Source: Microbacterium saccharophilum
GTDB lineage: Bacteria > Actinomycetota > Actinomycetes > Actinomycetales > Microbacteriaceae
Assembly (NCBI RefSeq): GCF_007992455.1
Contig: NZ_BKAH01000007.1
Location: forward strand, 1 to 64,000
Reading direction: 5' to 3'
DNA: 64,000 bases
Below are positions 3,208 to 30,677 of this stretch, piece by piece; positions within the stretch are counted from its first letter, which is position 1, and the number at the start of each line of letters is the position of its first letter. The notes beneath the pieces were generated by a model, which saw only the letters and a list, made by a program, of their open reading frames with translations, was not told where the DNA came from and searched no databases. Both the position numbers and the translations under genes were made by a program.

Positions 3208-4720
3208 CCGCGTAGGGCGCCAGCTGCGCGGCGAGGTGCTCGGAAACGTGCGCGTGCACGGCCGTGCCCTCCTCCTCGTGGCGCGTCGAGATGATGTGGC
3301 CGCTCTCGTGGACCGCGTTGATGAGGTCGCCGCGCTCGTAGGGCACGAGCGCCCGCACTTCGACCGCCGGGAGCGGCAGCGCCTCCTCGATCGCCGCGCG
3401 GAGCTCGGCGATGCCCTCGCCCGTCCGCGATGAGGCGAAGAGGGCGGAGGGCTCGAGTCCGCGCAGCACGAGGCGCGTGTCGGGGTCGACGAGGTCGGCC
3501 TTGTTGAACACGACGATCTCGCGGGTGGAGCGCGCGCCCACATCGCCCATGACGTCGCGCACCGTGAGCAGCTGGGCGGCCGGATCGGGGTGCGACCCGT
3601 CGACGACGTGCACGATGACGTCGGCGTCGGCGACCTCCTCGAGCGTCGAGCGGAACGCCTCGACGAGCTGGTGCGGGAGGTTCCGGACGAAGCCGACCGT
3701 GTCGGTGAGCGTGTACACGCGGCCGTCCACGGCTTCCGCGCGACGGACCGTGGCATCCAGCGTGGCGAACAGCGCGTTCTCGACGAGGACGCCGGCGCTG
3801 GTCAGCTTGTTCAGCAGGCTCGACTTGCCGGCGTTGGTGTACCCGGCGATCGCGACGGACGGGATCGTGTTGCGCTTGCGGTCGGCGCGCTTGGCCTCAC
3901 GGGCCGGGCCGAAGTCGCGGATCTGGCGGCGCAGCAGCGCCATCTTCGTGCGGATGCGGCGACGGTCCAGCTCGATCTTCGTCTCACCGGGACCGCGCGA
4001 TCCCATCCCCGCACCGCCGGCGCCGACCTGGCCACCGGCCTGACGGCTCATCGACTCACCCCAGCCGCGCAGACGCGGGAGGAGGTATTCGAGCTGCGCG
4101 AGCTCGACCTGCGCCTTGCCCTCGCGGCTCTTCGCGTGCTGGCTGAAGATGTCGAGGATGACGGTGGTCCGGTCGATGACCTTGACCTTCACGACATCCT
4201 CGAGGGCGCGCCGCTGGCTGGGGGCGAGCTCGGTGTCGGCGATGACGGTGTCGGCGCCCACGGCGGCGACGAGGTCGCGCAGTTCGGAGGCCTTGCCGCG
4301 GCCAATGTAGGTCGCCGGGTCGGGGTGCGGGCGGCGCTGCAGCACGCCGTCGAGGACGACCGCGCCCGCGGTCTCGGCGAGCGCGGACAGCTCGCGCAGC
4401 GAGTTCTCGGCATCCTCCTGCGAACCCTGCGGGTACACGCCCACGAGCACGACGTTCTCCAGCCGCAGCTGCCGGTACTCGACCTCGGTGACGTCTTCCA
4501 GCTCGGTGGAGAGCCCCGGGACGCGGCGCAGCGCGGCGCGCTCCTCGCGGTCCCACTGCTCGCCGTCGCTGTCGCCGTACGTGACGGTCGCGGCATCCTG
4601 CAGCGCCTGTGCGCCGCCGAACACGCGCACCCCGGAGCGCGCGTCGGCGCGCGCCAGCACACGATCCACCGGGTCCACCGGCGTCTCGTCCGTGCTCTGG
4701 GGTGTGATGGCGTCTGTCAT
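3200..4720 (-). CDS. hflX: Ribosome-associated GTPase HflX
   Basis: A 506-residue GTPase of the Obg-HflX class that in other bacteria splits or rescues ribosomes under stress. The N-terminal HflX domain precedes the G domain with G1 GYTNAGKSS near residue 292, G3 DTVGFVRNLP near 340 and G4 NKAD near 404. The ATG at 4720 has AAGGA about 5 nt upstream; an open extension of about 90 codons lacks family similarity. TAGAGT at 4759-4764 (minus strand) is a good -10 with a leader of about 30 nt. The gene lies next to the dapF-miaA block, as hflX does in mycobacteria. Confidence 0.93.
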   Translation of the reverse strand: MTDAITPQSTDETPVDPVDRVLARADARSGVRVFGGAQALQDAATVTYGDSDGEQWDREERAALRRVPGLSTELEDVTEVEYRQLRLENVVLVGVYPQGSQEDAENSLRELSALAETAGAVVLDGVLQRRPHPDPATYIGRGKASELRDLVAAVGADTVIADTELAPSQRRALEDVVKVKVIDRTTVILDIFSQHAKSREGKAQVELAQLEYLLPRLRGWGESMSRQAGGQVGAGGAGMGSRGPGETKIELDRRRIRTKMALLRRQIRDFGPAREAKRADRKRNTIPSVAIAGYTNAGKSSLLNKLTSAGVLVENALFATLDATVRRAEAVDGRVYTLTDTVGFVRNLPHQLVEAFRSTLEEVADADVIVHVVDGSHPDPAAQLLTVRDVMGDVGARSTREIVVFNKADLVDPDTRLVLRGLEPSALFASSRTGEGIAELRAAIEEALPLPAVEVRALVPYERGDLINAVHESGHIISTRHEEEGTAVHAHVSEHLAAQLAPYAVS

Positions 4721-26668: not shown

Positions 26669-27118
26669 TCAGCCCCGTCGCGCGTCGGCCTCCAGGGTGA
26701 TGGCCTTGCGCACCGCCTGCCGGGCACGGGTGCGGTCGCCGGCACCGTCGTACGCGAGGCCGAGCCGGTACCAGGCGCGCCAGTCGTCGGGGTGCGCCTC
26801 GACCTCGGCGCGGTAGGCGGGGAAGAGCGCGTCGGCCTGCTCGCGGATGGGGCGTCCGCTCGCGCGGACGTCGACCTCGTCGGCCGGCAGGCCACCCTCC
26901 CCCTCGAGCCGCTTGCCGAGCCGCTCGGCCCGGAGCCCGAAGCTCAGCTCACGCCACAGCCCCCACGCCCCGATGACCGGCAGCACGACGAGGGCGACGC
27001 CCATCGCGACGCCGATGGGTTCGCCCGTCATGAGCAGCAGGACGGCGCGCTGGCCGACGAGCAGGATGTAGAGGGCCAGGAGCACCGCCATGACGGCGAC
27101 GCCGATGCGCGCGCTCAT
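26669..27118 (-). CDS. Membrane protein with TPR-like C-terminus
   Basis: 149 residues: two hydrophobic segments (about residues 5-28 and 33-53), then a cytoplasmic helical region ending with DDWRAWYRLGLAYDGAGDR, a single tetratricopeptide-like repeat. The ATG overlaps the dapB stop (ATGA), so it is coupled to dapB. Genes of this type follow dapB in related genomes, but no function is known to me. Confidence 0.75.
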   Translation of the reverse strand: MSARIGVAVMAVLLALYILLVGQRAVLLLMTGEPIGVAMGVALVVLPVIGAWGLWRELSFGLRAERLGKRLEGEGGLPADEVDVRASGRPIREQADALFPAYRAEVEAHPDDWRAWYRLGLAYDGAGDRTRARQAVRKAITLEADARRG

Positions 27119-27930
27119 GCGCCGGTGGTGCGGGCGACCTGGCCGGGGACCCCCGCCTCGGCGACGGGGCGCTCGGCGGGGGTCGCCGGCGTCCGGATGC
27201 CGATCTCGATGATGCTGTCGAGCCCCACGGTCACACCCCGCGCGTCGCGGGCGGCGTACAGTGCGGCACGGATGCCGGGCGCGTACGCGGCGGACGGGTC
27301 GATCGTGTCGTGCACGATCGTGAGCGACTCGCCGGGCCCGGAGAGGATCGTCTCCTGTCGTGCGACGACCCCGGGCCGGCGGAGCGAGTGCACCGGAACG
27401 GAGGCGACCTGCTGGCCGCGTGCGCGCTGGTCGACGTGCGGCGACTCGACGGGCCCGACCTCGCGGCGCGCGGCGGCGATGAGCTCGGCCGTGCGCACGG
27501 CGGTGCCGCTCGGCGAGTCGATCTTCGTCTCGCGGTGGGTCTCCACGATCTCGATGGAGGGGAAGAACGGCGCCGCTGCGGCGGCGAGGGCGCTGCCGAC
27601 GACGGAGCCGATGGAGAAGTTCGGGATGAAGACGACGCCGGTTCCGGCGGCCTCGACGAGCGGCCGGACGAGTGCGATGCGCTCCGCCGACCATCCGGAG
27701 GTGCCGACGAGCACGTTGATGCCGCGGTCGATCGCGGCGCGGACGACGTCGATCGACACGGCGGGCGTCGACGCGTCCACGACCAGGTCGGCCCCGTCGA
27801 TCTCGCTCATGTCGCTGCCCGATCCGAGCACCGCGACCGTCTCGAAGTCGTCGGCGGCGTCGATCACTGCGGCGATGATGCCGCCGAGCTTTCCGGTGCC
27901 TCCCACCAGGGCAACCCGCGTCGTCGTCAT
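27115..27930 (-). CDS. dapB: 4-hydroxy-tetrahydrodipicolinate reductase
   Basis: Second step of the lysine/DAP branch, reducing HTPA with NAD(P)H. 271 residues. The cofactor motif is GGTGKLGG (residues 10-17). The active-site motif ETHRETKIDSPSGTA carries His132 and Lys136; the second histidine of the usual His-His pair is Arg133 here. TAGGCT (minus strand, 27938-27943) lies 7 nt from the ATG, so it is probably leaderless. Confidence 0.93.
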   Translation of the reverse strand: MTTTRVALVGGTGKLGGIIAAVIDAADDFETVAVLGSGSDMSEIDGADLVVDASTPAVSIDVVRAAIDRGINVLVGTSGWSAERIALVRPLVEAAGTGVVFIPNFSIGSVVGSALAAAAAPFFPSIEIVETHRETKIDSPSGTAVRTAELIAAARREVGPVESPHVDQRARGQQVASVPVHSLRRPGVVARQETILSGPGESLTIVHDTIDPSAAYAPGIRAALYAARDARGVTVGLDSIIEIGIRTPATPAERPVAEAGVPGQVARTTGA

Positions 27931-27937
27931 GGGCTCA

Positions 27938-27955
27938 AGCCTACGGGGATACGCT
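27938..27955. promoter_or_regulatory. Divergent leaderless -10 boxes for dapB and the GNAT gene
   Basis: Minus-strand TAGGCT at 27938-27943 and plus-strand TACGCT at 27950-27955, only 6 bp apart, each 7 nt from its start codon. The two start codons are just 32 bp apart, so the promoters must share a tiny control region. Confidence 0.5.
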
Positions 27956-27962
27956 CGAAGGC

Positions 27963-28430
27963 ATGGTCAGCCTGAGCCCGACACGCACCGACGATCCCCG
28001 CGCTCACGCCCTTCTCGGCGAGTACTTCCACATGCGCGGCGAGACGTTCCCCGACCGGGTGTACACCCCGGTCTTCCCGGAACCGGCGGCGTTCGAGCCG
28101 CCGGCGGGCATCTTCCTCGTCGTCGCCGACGACGAGGGCGAGGACGTCGGATGCGGCGGCATCCGGCGGATCGCGGACGGGCCGGACGGCATCCGGTACG
28201 AGGTGAAGCACCTGTACCTCCGCCCCGCGACGCGCGGACGCGGCTGGGGCCGCCTGCTCCTGGAGGAGCTCGAGTCGCGCGCTCGCGACTGGGATGCCGC
28301 GGAGCTCGTGCTCGACACGCATCACACGCTGGAGGCGGCCGGCGGCCTGTACGCCCGCAGCGGCTTCACCGCGATCGAGCCCTACAACGACAACCCGAAC
28401 GCGACTATGTGGTTACGTAAGAAGTTATAG
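27963..28430 (+). CDS. GNAT family N-acetyltransferase with exchanged C-terminus
   Basis: A 155-residue GNAT domain: motif A LRPATRGRGWGRLLLEELES near residues 85-104, then LVLDTHHTLEAAGGLYARSGF and the final PYNDNPNAT. The last codons (MWLRKKL) are AT-rich and unlike the rest of the gene. A copy of the expected ending, DNPNATRWYGKRL, lies 663 bp downstream at 29054-29092, beyond a lower-GC segment. The gene therefore appears to have had its tail replaced by an insertion. Substrate unknown. Confidence 0.82.
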   Translation: MVSLSPTRTDDPRAHALLGEYFHMRGETFPDRVYTPVFPEPAAFEPPAGIFLVVADDEGEDVGCGGIRRIADGPDGIRYEVKHLYLRPATRGRGWGRLLLEELESRARDWDAAELVLDTHHTLEAAGGLYARSGFTAIEPYNDNPNATMWLRKKL

Positions 28431-29069
28431 CCTCGTCGGCTCACGCAGGTGGACTGACCATCCAGTAGCTCTCCGCATCGCAACCGTCCGGCACGAAAGC
28501 GTCCATTGCTGGGCCACCGGAACCGGGGCCGCCGCCGAGTGTCACTTCGTCGCCGTCTCGAAACGACTCCCCCTCGAATACGAGCGCGTCATCGACCCAG
28601 GACGCGAAACCGTCAGGGAATACGACCACCGTTCCGTTCGTGAACTGCACGCAACCGTCCGCAAAGGAGATCTCACCGATCCGAGCTGAGGCGAAGTGCG
28701 CATCACCTGGACGGACGGGGTAGGTAGCAAAATCCGCGGGCGGTGGATTACTTGCCTGCACACCCGGGACATCGCCGGTAGATTCTGCGCTTGCCTCGTC
28801 GGACTGCTGCGATTCAGAGCAAGCCGCTAGCACTGAGACCGCGCAGACCAACACGACGGCGACACCAAACGCTGATCTGCTCCGAGCCACGCGCCGCCTC
28901 CAGTGGTCTGCCGCGCTCCCCTATCGCACGGGACTCCATCCGGTCATCTTCGCTCATCGCACGACGAAACGCCAGCCCGCTCGCCAGTGTCCTCAGCCCA
29001 GGTCGCGAGCGTGCGCTCCGAACGACGCAGGTCGTTGCAGACTTCGGACGACGACAACCCGAACGCGAC
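28388..29069. mobile_element. Putative small integrated element of about 663 bp between 19-bp direct repeats
   Basis: ACGACAACCCGAACGCGAC occurs exactly at 28388-28406 and again at 29051-29069. The first copy lies in the GNAT gene. Codons following the second copy give the natural GNAT ending (RWYGKRL). The DNA between has clearly more A+T (about 60 percent GC by eye) than its neighbours, and holds one lipoprotein gene and no recombinase. The layout resembles attL/attR of an element inserting in a 3' gene end and restoring the frame. Recombination between diverged alleles is an alternative. Confidence 0.55.
28441..28890 (-). CDS. Predicted small lipoprotein of unknown function
   Basis: 149 residues with a signal peptide (FGVAVVLVCAVSVLAAC). 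The lipobox VLAAC predicts lipidation of Cys24 and export to the outer face of the membrane. The mature part is acidic and Ser/Gly-rich, with two further cysteines (DGCVQF and DGCDAE) that could form a disulfide. No domain recognised. The GTG start has GGAGG 6 nt upstream. Codon use has more A/T at third positions than its neighbours, in keeping with acquisition. It lies wholly within the segment flanked by 19-bp repeats. Confidence 0.65.
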   Translation of the reverse strand: MARSRSAFGVAVVLVCAVSVLAACSESQQSDEASAESTGDVPGVQASNPPPADFATYPVRPGDAHFASARIGEISFADGCVQFTNGTVVVFPDGFASWVDDALVFEGESFRDGDEVTLGGGPGSGGPAMDAFVPDGCDAESYWMVSPPA

Positions 29070-29109
29070 GCGCTGGTACGGGAAGCGCCTGCAGATCACT
29101 CCCGCGTGA
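29051..29109 (+). pseudogene. Displaced 3' end of the GNAT gene
   Basis: Reads DDNPNATRWYGKRLQITPA and then TGA at 29107. NPNATRWYGKRL is the expected C-terminus of a GNAT protein, and its start repeats the end of the intact GNAT gene. No start codon or domain precedes it, so it is a remnant left by the insertion. It overlaps the 3' end of the convergent phosphotransferase gene. Confidence 0.55.
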
Positions 29110-29947
29110 GCTGAGCGAGGACGTGCTCGCCCGCGGCGCGCATGCCGTCATCCTCCGCGCCGAGGAAGATCGGGGCGAGCGCCGCGGCCCAGCCGCGCGC
29201 GCGTGTCCAGTCGGCGTCGTCGTAGCGGCCTGCCAGCGCGCCGCGGAACGCGGCCTGACCGGCCGGCGTGAACGCGAGCCACGCCACCGACAGATCGGAT
29301 GCCGGGTCGCCGGCGCACAGGTCGCCGAAGTCGATCAGCGCGGCGAGACGGCCGCCGTCGACGACGAGGTTCCCGGGGTGCAGGTCGCCGTGCAGCCAGA
29401 GCGGCGGCCCGTCCCAGCCGGGAGCGGCGAGCCCCGCGTCCCACACCCTCAGCAGCTCGGGCAGGGCGGTCAGGCGCTCGCGGACCGTGTGGTCGCGCTC
29501 TGCCATCGGCACGCCGCGGTACGGATTGCGCGGTGCCTCCACGGGCGCCGCCGTGTGCAGCGCGCGCAGCACGCCGCCGAGTTCGCCCGCGAAGGCGTCG
29601 CGCTCGTGCGGCGCGAGGTCGAGGGCGCGGCGTCCCGCGAACCACGGGACGACGCTCCAGCGCCAGGGGTACAGCTCGTCGGGTTCGCCGACGGCCACCG
29701 GCACCGGGATCGGCACCGGCACTCGGCGCGCGAGCGCGGGCAGCCACCGCTGCTCGTGCGCGATGAGGTGCGCGGCGGTCTCGCGGCGCGGCAGCCGCAC
29801 GGCGAGGTCGTCGCCGAGCCGGAAGACATCGTTGTCCCAGCCGTGCGCGACGCGATGCAGCGGACCGCGCAGCGAAGGATGCTGGTCCGCCAGCAGCCGG
29901 TCGACGTCGGCGACCGTGATGTCGATGTCCGCGGGCGGGTGACGCAT
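29096..29947 (-). CDS. Aminoglycoside phosphotransferase-family kinase
   Basis: A 283-residue APH-fold small-molecule kinase. The catalytic loop HGDLHPGN has Asp188, and IDFGD (205-209) binds magnesium. The N-lobe starts HGWDNDVFRLGDDLAVRLPRR. Families with this pattern include aminoglycoside, macrolide and homoserine kinases, so a resistance role is not implied. TAGGAT (minus strand, 29954-29959) is 6 nt before the ATG, suggesting a leaderless mRNA. The end overlaps the displaced GNAT tail. Confidence 0.85.
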   Translation of the reverse strand: MRHPPADIDITVADVDRLLADQHPSLRGPLHRVAHGWDNDVFRLGDDLAVRLPRRETAAHLIAHEQRWLPALARRVPVPIPVPVAVGEPDELYPWRWSVVPWFAGRRALDLAPHERDAFAGELGGVLRALHTAAPVEAPRNPYRGVPMAERDHTVRERLTALPELLRVWDAGLAAPGWDGPPLWLHGDLHPGNLVVDGGRLAALIDFGDLCAGDPASDLSVAWLAFTPAGQAAFRGALAGRYDDADWTRARGWAAALAPIFLGAEDDGMRAAGEHVLAQLTRE

Positions 29948-29994
29948 CCGACGATCCTAACGACGCGCCCGGGAGCGCTCCGGGCGGGAACGGG

Positions 29995-30600
29995 TCAGAC
30001 GAACGGGTGCTCGGGCACGCCGGTGCGCAGCTCCATCGGGAGGTGGGCGAGGTCGTTGTGGGTCACGAGCGTCCATGGCCGTCCCGTGCGCTGCACGAGG
30101 ACGGTGAGGCCGCAGTGCGCCTGGCTGAGCGTCAGCCAGCGCCAGGCGGGGGCCTCGAGCACTTCGCGGACGAACCACGAGATGACGAAGTTGTGCGTGA
30201 TGAGGAGTTCGTGCGCGTCGGGCTTGCGGACGAGGAACTCGTCGACGGCGTCGGACATCTGGGCGGACCCCGCCTCGATCTCGGCCTCCGTGATACCGCC
30301 GAAGAAGGCCTCGTAGACGCTCGGGGTCTCCGGGGTCATGCCGGTCGGCACGCAGTCGAACAGCAGCGGCGAGGCCTCGGGCGACACCGCCGGCAGGCGG
30401 TCGGCCACGGCCCGTGCCGTCTCCGCGGCGCGCTCGAGCGGCGAGTGCCAGACGGCCGTCAGCGGCACACCGGAGAGCCGGTCGGCGATCAGCTGCGCCT
30501 GACGGCGCCCGCGCGGCGAGAGGGGGCCGTCCGCCAGCCCGTGCTCGGCGCCGACGTGCTCGCCGTGCCGCACGAGATACAGATACTGCGACACGGTCAT
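29995..30600 (-). CDS. Histidine phosphatase family protein
   Basis: 201 residues with the phosphoglycerate-mutase-like motif LVRHGE, in which His12 is the phospho-acceptor; SPLERAAETARAV and ITHNFVISWFVRE complete the site. The substrate is unknown; it could be a cofactor-independent phosphatase. The ATG at 30600 is chosen because homology starts there. An upstream GTG at 30648 is in frame but would translate a run of ten C. That C-run lies in the leader, downstream of a TAGGGT -10 box (30649-30654, minus strand). Confidence 0.85.
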   Translation of the reverse strand: MTVSQYLYLVRHGEHVGAEHGLADGPLSPRGRRQAQLIADRLSGVPLTAVWHSPLERAAETARAVADRLPAVSPEASPLLFDCVPTGMTPETPSVYEAFFGGITEAEIEAGSAQMSDAVDEFLVRKPDAHELLITHNFVISWFVREVLEAPAWRWLTLSQAHCGLTVLVQRTGRPWTLVTHNDLAHLPMELRTGVPEHPFV

Positions 30601-30612
30601 GCTCACTTCGTC

Positions 30613-30622
30613 GGGGGGGGGG
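30613..30622. repeat. Homopolymer of ten G (ten C on the coding strand)
   Basis: Ten consecutive G on the plus strand, in the leader of the histidine phosphatase gene 13-22 nt before its ATG. Tracts this long are prone to slippage and can alter promoter-to-start distance. Confidence 0.75.
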
Positions 30623-30677
30623 ACCTGCGGAGGGCAGGGCTCTTCCACCCTATGTCAGCCCGCCGACGCGCCGCCCG

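Follow-up and report, generated by a model that had tools for sequence, protein, structure and literature searches.

The recombinases of the SCC elements of staphylococci are of the serine recombinase type. Insertion of SCC at the gene rlmH is described with 15-bp repeats (PMC4723332), and for the serine integrases of mycobacteria core sequences of 5-8 bp are given (PMC8092301). The kind of event that we describe here, an integration at the 3' end of a protein-coding gene, is known; the site, in a GNAT acetyltransferase gene, and the group of elements that uses it are new. Neither the site, nor the recombinase group, nor the recurrent use of the GNAT tail was found in the literature searched, which comprised open-licence papers covered mostly by their titles and the beginnings of their abstracts, and the main text of PMC10083194, which surveys serine recombinases and the genes they target, does not contain the word acetyltransferase.

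The locus lies in the window, by which we mean the whole stretch of 64,000 nucleotides of Microbacterium saccharophilum DNA that was analysed. The target is a GNAT gene (27963..28430, plus strand; Pfam Acetyltransf_1, 1.7e-14), which has dapB on its other side (27115-27930, minus strand) and whose codons from 28406 on are inserted DNA. With good confidence, we regard the 3' end of this gene as the putative attB of a group of serine-recombinase elements, and the insert in the window as either a recombinase-less, CIME-like relic or a non-autonomous cassette. Copy 1 of a direct repeat (28387..28405, plus strand, 19 bp exact) represents the original GNAT end up to the crossover region and includes the core CGAACGC. 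It is followed by the conserved right arm of the element attachment site (TATGTGGTTACGTAAG, 28406..28421, plus strand), recognised by comparison with inserts in the relatives G029, G105 and G233, which also codes MWLRK. A small lipoprotein gene (28441..28890, minus strand) is the cargo, and the rest of the inserted DNA (28891..29050) is without a convincing gene and without a consensus promoter or terminator that we could find. Copy 2 of the repeat (29051..29069, plus strand) forms the right-hand junction and leads into the orphan original GNAT tail (29070..29109, plus strand), which codes RWYGKRLQITPA and a stop and is in frame once the flanks are joined. Outside the insert, an APH-family phosphotransferase gene (29096..29947, minus strand; PF01636, 1.1e-42) overlaps the end of the original tail, and a histidine phosphatase gene (29995..30648, minus strand; PF00300, 7.2e-26) provides a conserved right-hand anchor. 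As it stands, the GNAT ORF of the window has the C-terminal end NPNATMWLRKKL; the frame after copy 2 is DDDNPNATRWYGKRLQITPA with its stop at 29109, and 3' of copy 2 it reads NPNATRWYGKRLQITPA followed by the stop.

An earlier note on this DNA had reported an exact 19-bp repeat, and ACGACAACCCGAACGCGAC does occur twice, with the second copy at 29051-29069 as given there; the first copy is at 28387-28405, one base off the claimed 28388-28406. If one mismatch is allowed the repeat grows to 22 bp (28384-28405 and 29048-29069). By itself the 19-bp repeat is weak evidence, because exact 19-mer repeats are not rare in the window (24 of them at 71.5% GC, overlapping ones counted). What takes it beyond chance is that copy 1 is the 3' end of the GNAT gene and copy 2 is followed by an in-frame second GNAT tail, an arrangement that the note had recognised and that the ORF and the frame to 29109 bear out. 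The segment between the copies, about 0.66 kb long, was rightly described as lower in GC (63.2% vs 71.5% for the whole window), with about 0.16% of the 644-base stretches of the window, taken in 50-base steps, having a GC content as low or lower; GC3 is 65% in the lipoprotein gene vs 93% in the GNAT gene. No recombinase-like ORF is present among the ORFs listed within the segment, again as the note had it, and the lipoprotein gene is the only convincing one.

Fusing the window flanks at one repeat copy yields an open GNAT frame with the tail RWYGKRLQITPA. The nearest relative, G309, has an empty site to which the fused sequence can be aligned without a gap for 461 bp, with 90% identity. In the actual window, homology to G309 ends exactly at 28405 and restarts at 29993, and therefore G309 has neither the cassette nor the APH gene. 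With G079 (L070) the fused flanks can be aligned as well, here past the junction and on into the APH gene (840 bp, 75%, seven gap openings), and empty sites are seen in other Microbacterium species as well. Both the proposal of integration at the GNAT 3' end with the frame kept and the prediction of an empty site in relatives thus found their counterpart in G309, which joins the GNAT gene directly to the second-type tail; the opposite case, in which no relative has such a fused gene, is contradicted by the same genome.

The cargo protein contains the motif VLAAC, picked out by eye, which we take to be a lipobox, and is predicted to be surface-exposed. Matches to it, at 32-47% identity, occur in 20 of 365 other genomes, representing a sporadic Microbacterium family; in 12 of these 20, for which the place of the GNAT gene was also listed, the lipoprotein gene lies away from GNAT. 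The family alignment (A1, 19 sequences) has three invariant cysteines, the first at the lipobox, and the motifs VPVFP and LGGG. There is no Pfam or PHROG match to the protein, and its NCBIfam matches are all far below cut-off. An AlphaFold2 model (pLDDT 79.5) is a small beta-rich domain, with which a search of the PDB gave nothing at E<=0.001, the best hits being RNA polymerase subunit chains at a TM-score of about 0.35.

Of 366 Microbacterium genomes, 363 have a match to the GNAT gene at E<=0.001; the weak matches probably represent other GNATs. We read 132 loci, the window and 131 relatives, with up to 20 kb around each GNAT gene; eight of the first 12 relatives were picked for a match to the tail pattern and four as near relatives, and the next 119 were taken by order of GNAT similarity among the matches listed. 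The sequence TGTGGTTACGTAAG, which codes WLRK, ends the GNAT gene in five of the 132 loci (window, G029, G105, G183 and G233), a share that is not a prevalence because tail-pattern genomes were deliberately included and the sample is not random; a genus-wide pattern search located the exact 14 bases at the site in 5 of 366 genomes. In 131 of the 132 loci GNAT is followed by a histidine phosphatase gene, which in 63 of them is no more than 60 bp away. The gap between the two genes exceeds 300 bp in all five TGTGGTTACGTAAG loci vs 47 of the 126 others with the anchor (Fisher p 0.009), and an orphan tail of the RWYGK or RWYAK type follows downstream in four of the five vs one of the 127 others, G326 (Fisher p 2e-6). 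The reversed control pattern had no match in 2.38 Mb, and a search at the amino-acid level of the 52 gaps above 300 bp recovered the orphan tails of these four loci and G326 and no further ones. In the remaining TGTGGTTACGTAAG locus, G183, no orphan tail accompanies the 1.9-kb insert. In G326 (L051, GNAT-forward ~640-820) the orphan RWYGK tail lies about 110 bp behind a GNAT gene with a host-type RWYRK tail, and the locus has the appearance of a host-type tail swap with nearly no cargo remaining.

The other 46 gaps above 300 bp (52 in total, 18 clusters) were also considered as hotspot inserts and rejected, as none has an orphan tail; in 45 of them the GC content is less than 0.05 below that of the locus's own GNAT gene. 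They are not counted as part of the hotspot since several form shared clusters, one of 5 kb in 11 loci and another of 16 loci with an APH gene in eight. Behind the GNAT gene of the exception in GC content, L185 (G315), histidine phosphatase is matched twice, in part at about 1.3 kb and in full at about 4.0 kb, which points to a duplication with inserted DNA.

A longer tail pattern with up to two mismatches occurs in 9 of the 366 genus genomes, and its control in none. Four of those nine (G027, G038, G067 and G330) may be ordinary coding variation; the WLRK-like tails of these four and of G276, G189 and G324, weighed as possible traces of earlier integrations, use mostly other codons, that of G038 sits in a low-GC stretch, and G027 retains TGGTTACG. 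It takes five changes on the GNAT tree to explain the five exact tails, which suggests separate gains on a tree that is poorly resolved, with 55 of 130 inner branches open. The GNAT C-terminus is either of a WY or a WL type among the 132 loci, with 19 WL rows and 15 changes on the poorly resolved tree, and some WL-type tails may be scars of old integrations.

These loci differ in what lies between the same ends. The insert of G105 is about 0.39 kb long with one ORF of 96 aa, which counts as a gene by its open frame only, while that of G233 spans 1.26 kb and has, by eye, an acetyltransferase-like and a transposase-like stretch. The G029 insert, of 6.2 kb, ends at the gene of a 463-aa large serine recombinase (PF00239, Resolvase, 2e-29; PF07508, Recombinase, 3e-6), which starts 24 bp from the orphan tail. 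The earlier note had foreseen different cargo between the same ends, and these three inserts supply it. In G499, of another genus, 8.7 kb of DNA are inserted between GNAT and histidine phosphatase at the same site, and the GNAT tail is foreign; the recombinase of G499 (PF00239, 6e-29; PF07508, 6.2e-9) is 57% identical to the G029 enzyme and starts at attR and the orphan GNAT tail, next to the phosphatase gene. The G029 element also encodes, at about 3583-4143 and 676-2947 of L042 (GNAT-forward), a small serine resolvase and a weak-HNH protein besides several uncharacterised ones. Two further proteins of this element (194 and 137 aa) resemble, in order and by eye, a pair in the G499 element. 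The G029 element is possibly a phage satellite or a small integrative element.

Relatives of the G029 recombinase are few. At E<=1e-40 they occur in 9 of 366 Microbacterium genomes, G029 included, the others being at most 53% identical over parts, and of 249 genomes sampled from the family two have a match at E<=1e-60, namely G499 and G390, the enzyme of the latter being 36-38% identical. Both close members of the recombinase group that we found, G029 and G499, occupy the GNAT 3' site. Neither GNAT nor histidine phosphatase was found in the stretches surrounding the nine distant relatives (eight in Microbacterium, and G390), and attachment patterns searched in six of the nine (G145, G005 and G120 left out) matched only at the loosest mismatch level or one below it. 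A second genome of the genus of G499 had no recombinase match at E<=1e-60. The same was true at E<=1e-80 of a 248-genome sample of the order, a null that shows little because that sample contained no genome known to match.

Taken together, the recurrent tails and inserts, and the recombinases of G029 and G499 lying there, lead us to conclude that the GNAT 3' end is, as judged from genome sequences, a natural attachment site (attB) that has been used repeatedly, and it was probably the recombinase type of G029 and G499 that opened it. The suggestion that the GNAT 3' end is an integration hotspot agrees with the inserts in several species and with the two recombinase elements. The earlier note's comparison was to integrative elements at tRNA genes; the mechanism differs from these, the recombinases found at the GNAT site being large serine recombinases.

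The core common to both junctions is AACGC (5 bp) in G029 and CGAACGC (7 bp) in G499. If the arms of the reconstructed attP are read outward from the central AA, they agree in G029 at 15 of 22 positions (0 of 20,000 shuffles) and in G499 at 11 (p 0.01); with the core removed and gaps allowed, arm symmetry is modest in G029 (18 of 1000 shuffles) and absent in G499 (227 of 1000). We infer that the crossover dinucleotide is at the central AA. The right arm of the window is identical to that of G105 at 21 of 22 positions and to those of G233 and G029 at 19 of 22. On the other side of the insert, the sequence left of the right-junction core is unlike the left attP arms of G029 and G499, and the repeat reaches 12 bp to the left of CGAACGC with one mismatch, further than in either of these. 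The right junction of the window is consequently no ordinary attR, given this long leftward repeat and the dissimilar left arm. This leaves two readings: an attP whose left arm was unusual, or a larger element that has had its right part, including the recombinase, replaced. The left arms of G105 and G233 are also not clearly of the recombinase type.

We propose that integrative elements with a large serine recombinase target the GNAT 3' end as their attB and would cut within the core CGAACGC, some ten codons short of the GNAT stop. The original tail of the gene (RWYGKxL) would be displaced to the far side of the insert, and its place would be taken by the right arm of the attachment site that the element carries (..TGTGGTTACGTAAG..), which codes a similar tail, WLRKxL. 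Because the arm codes such a similar tail, the acetyltransferase should stay functional. The element in the window would have kept its left end and one cargo gene and later lost the end with the recombinase. Integration, the swap of tails, the empty site, recurrence at the site in several species and the predicted serine recombinase genes of two inserts all emerge from comparison of genomes; that the window element was itself inserted by a recombinase of the G029/G499 group, that the part with the recombinase disappeared later and that the enzyme still works with its new tail is what we infer from them.

How the recombinase end disappeared may be specified further. As a special case of this explanation, a G029-like element could have inserted and its right part then been replaced by DNA of an empty-site relative bearing the APH gene. 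Such an import would bring 22 bp of GNAT end, the RWYGK tail and the APH gene, leaving a long repeat and no recombinase, and the repeat is indeed longer than those at G029 and G499. The left side of repeat copy 2 matches the original gene at 14 of 22 positions (p 0.001) rather than a P-left arm, and the sister G309 has neither cassette nor APH gene, homology to it restarting only at 29993. However, the window is one of 8 among the 52 large gaps in which the APH gene adjoins GNAT, the seven others having it at the same place, and the overlapping GNAT-APH order recurs in G079; with APH beside GNAT in other Microbacterium lineages, its loss in G309 is equally likely. Moreover, similarity to G309 is no lower on the histidine phosphatase side (93% identity) than on the GNAT side (91%). 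We regard this two-step origin as a tentative possibility, with the odds somewhat against it.

Movement in trans, which the earlier note had favoured, would make the insert a non-autonomous 0.66-kb circle with its own attP, inserted by a serine recombinase encoded elsewhere and spreading like a ccr-less SCC. The window (lipoprotein) and G105 (96-aa ORF) each have about one ORF between the conserved left end and the orphan tail, the inserts vary by species, and the scattered distribution of the lipoprotein family fits a mobile cargo. The small inserts, however, have left attP arms that are unlike each other and unlike those of G029 and G499. A search of the window's genome at E<=1e-40 found nothing related to the G029 recombinase, the two large serine recombinase genes with PF07508 elsewhere in that genome (G000:C4:1095-1370, L218, and C17:11336-11635, L222) not being relatives at that threshold, and the genomes of G105 and G183 have no PF07508 match at all. 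Nor was a copy found in the phages, plasmids and viral contigs searched: cassette DNA is absent from the plasmids, DNA of window positions 27940-29140 from the phages and a relative of the lipoprotein from both, the plasmids have no relative of the recombinase at E<=1e-30, and no exact attL-type pattern occurs in the viral contigs, one of which has two stretches encoding relatives of 45% identity. These results, with a right junction that does not have a recombinase-type left attP arm, go against movement in trans, and we hold it to be unlikely. The same doubt attaches to its wider form, in which a rare serine recombinase acting in trans would insert a family of minimal one-gene cassettes into the GNAT 3' end as their common docking site, with an attP arm under the double constraint of binding the recombinase and coding WLRKxL. 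If it were true, host species would repeatedly swap cargo at the GNAT 3' end while the enzyme retains a tail. The data agree at least as well with a relic whose recombinase end has been lost as with movement in trans.

A tyrosine recombinase element is very improbable. The 19-22 bp repeat would then be the core, and its length does suit this reading better, as cores of 3 to 25 bp are given for non-tRNA Int-Y sites (PMC8092301); the shared TGTGGTTACGTAAG arm would be a convergence on a coding tail. That arm, however, is 19/22 identical to that of the serine-recombinase element G029 and in the same register, and its DNA (codon TTA, TACGTAA) differs from the GC-rich tails of most of the relatives compared, the GNAT end TGGTTACG being found in only 7 of 132 loci. 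Finally, a vertical arrangement arising from partial duplication of GNAT with no integration has nothing specific in its favour beyond the WLRK-like tails with other codons in other species, and the gapless empty site of G309, the low GC and GC3, the absence from the nearest relative and the in-frame second tail make it scarcely credible.

The preferred reading, serine-recombinase integration at the GNAT 3' end followed in the window by loss of the recombinase end, provides Microbacterium and a related genus with a mapped integration hotspot together with a candidate recombinase, attB and attP, and the GNAT site could serve as a site-specific integration tool. It also offers a natural case of elements that would give their target gene a substitute C-terminus, and an example of a tiny recombinase-less leftover that persists with its cargo.

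Compared with known systems, the G029 and G499 enzymes share the Resolvase and Recombinase domains of the large serine integrases of actinobacterial phages. Eleven phage records (six Microbacterium, five Mycobacterium) match the G029-type recombinase at E<=1e-30, and these are only 31-38% identical; in the stretches around the integrases of three of the Microbacterium phages, Percival, Caron and SuMoo, no convincing GNAT-type site was found, the pattern matching at the loosest mismatch level or not at all. The prophages at attB-8 of Mycobacterium abscessus (MAB_2979) are similar in entering their target seven codons from the stop and in exchanging its C-terminal residues for ones they encode, but they are full prophages and use a tyrosine integrase (PMC8092301). 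The serine-integrase prophages described in the same paper disrupt their targets, whereas at GNAT a tail is supplied (PMC8092301).

SCC and pseudo-SCC of staphylococci resemble the present locus in using the 3' end of a protein gene (rlmH/orfX) that is left functional, in having a ccr-less version and in forming a hotspot of changing cargo (PMC4723332); they differ in the gene, the host phylum and the recombinase, and the repeats here measure 5 to 22 bp. The G029 recombinase scores 60 bits on the CcrB model, for which the cut-off is 900, and is far below the CcrA, CcrB and CcrC cut-offs. With a GNAT gene as the target and a recombinase below the Ccr cut-offs, we rejected membership in SCC or pseudo-SCC.

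There is also a likeness to CIMEs, which are integrated segments with an attachment sequence at the end, without recombinase or transfer genes, and with a related recombinase element at the same site (PMC5704250). The window cassette differs from them in its size of 0.66 kb with one gene and in a right end with no recognisable attR; no parent conjugative element is known for it, and accretion with a full element was not seen. Since the window does not have the element's left arm (attR) at its right end, it stands outside the CIMEs in the strict sense. It does retain one attachment end (28406-28421), with its arm 19/22 identical to that of G029, and is most likely best read as a recombinase-less, CIME-like relic.
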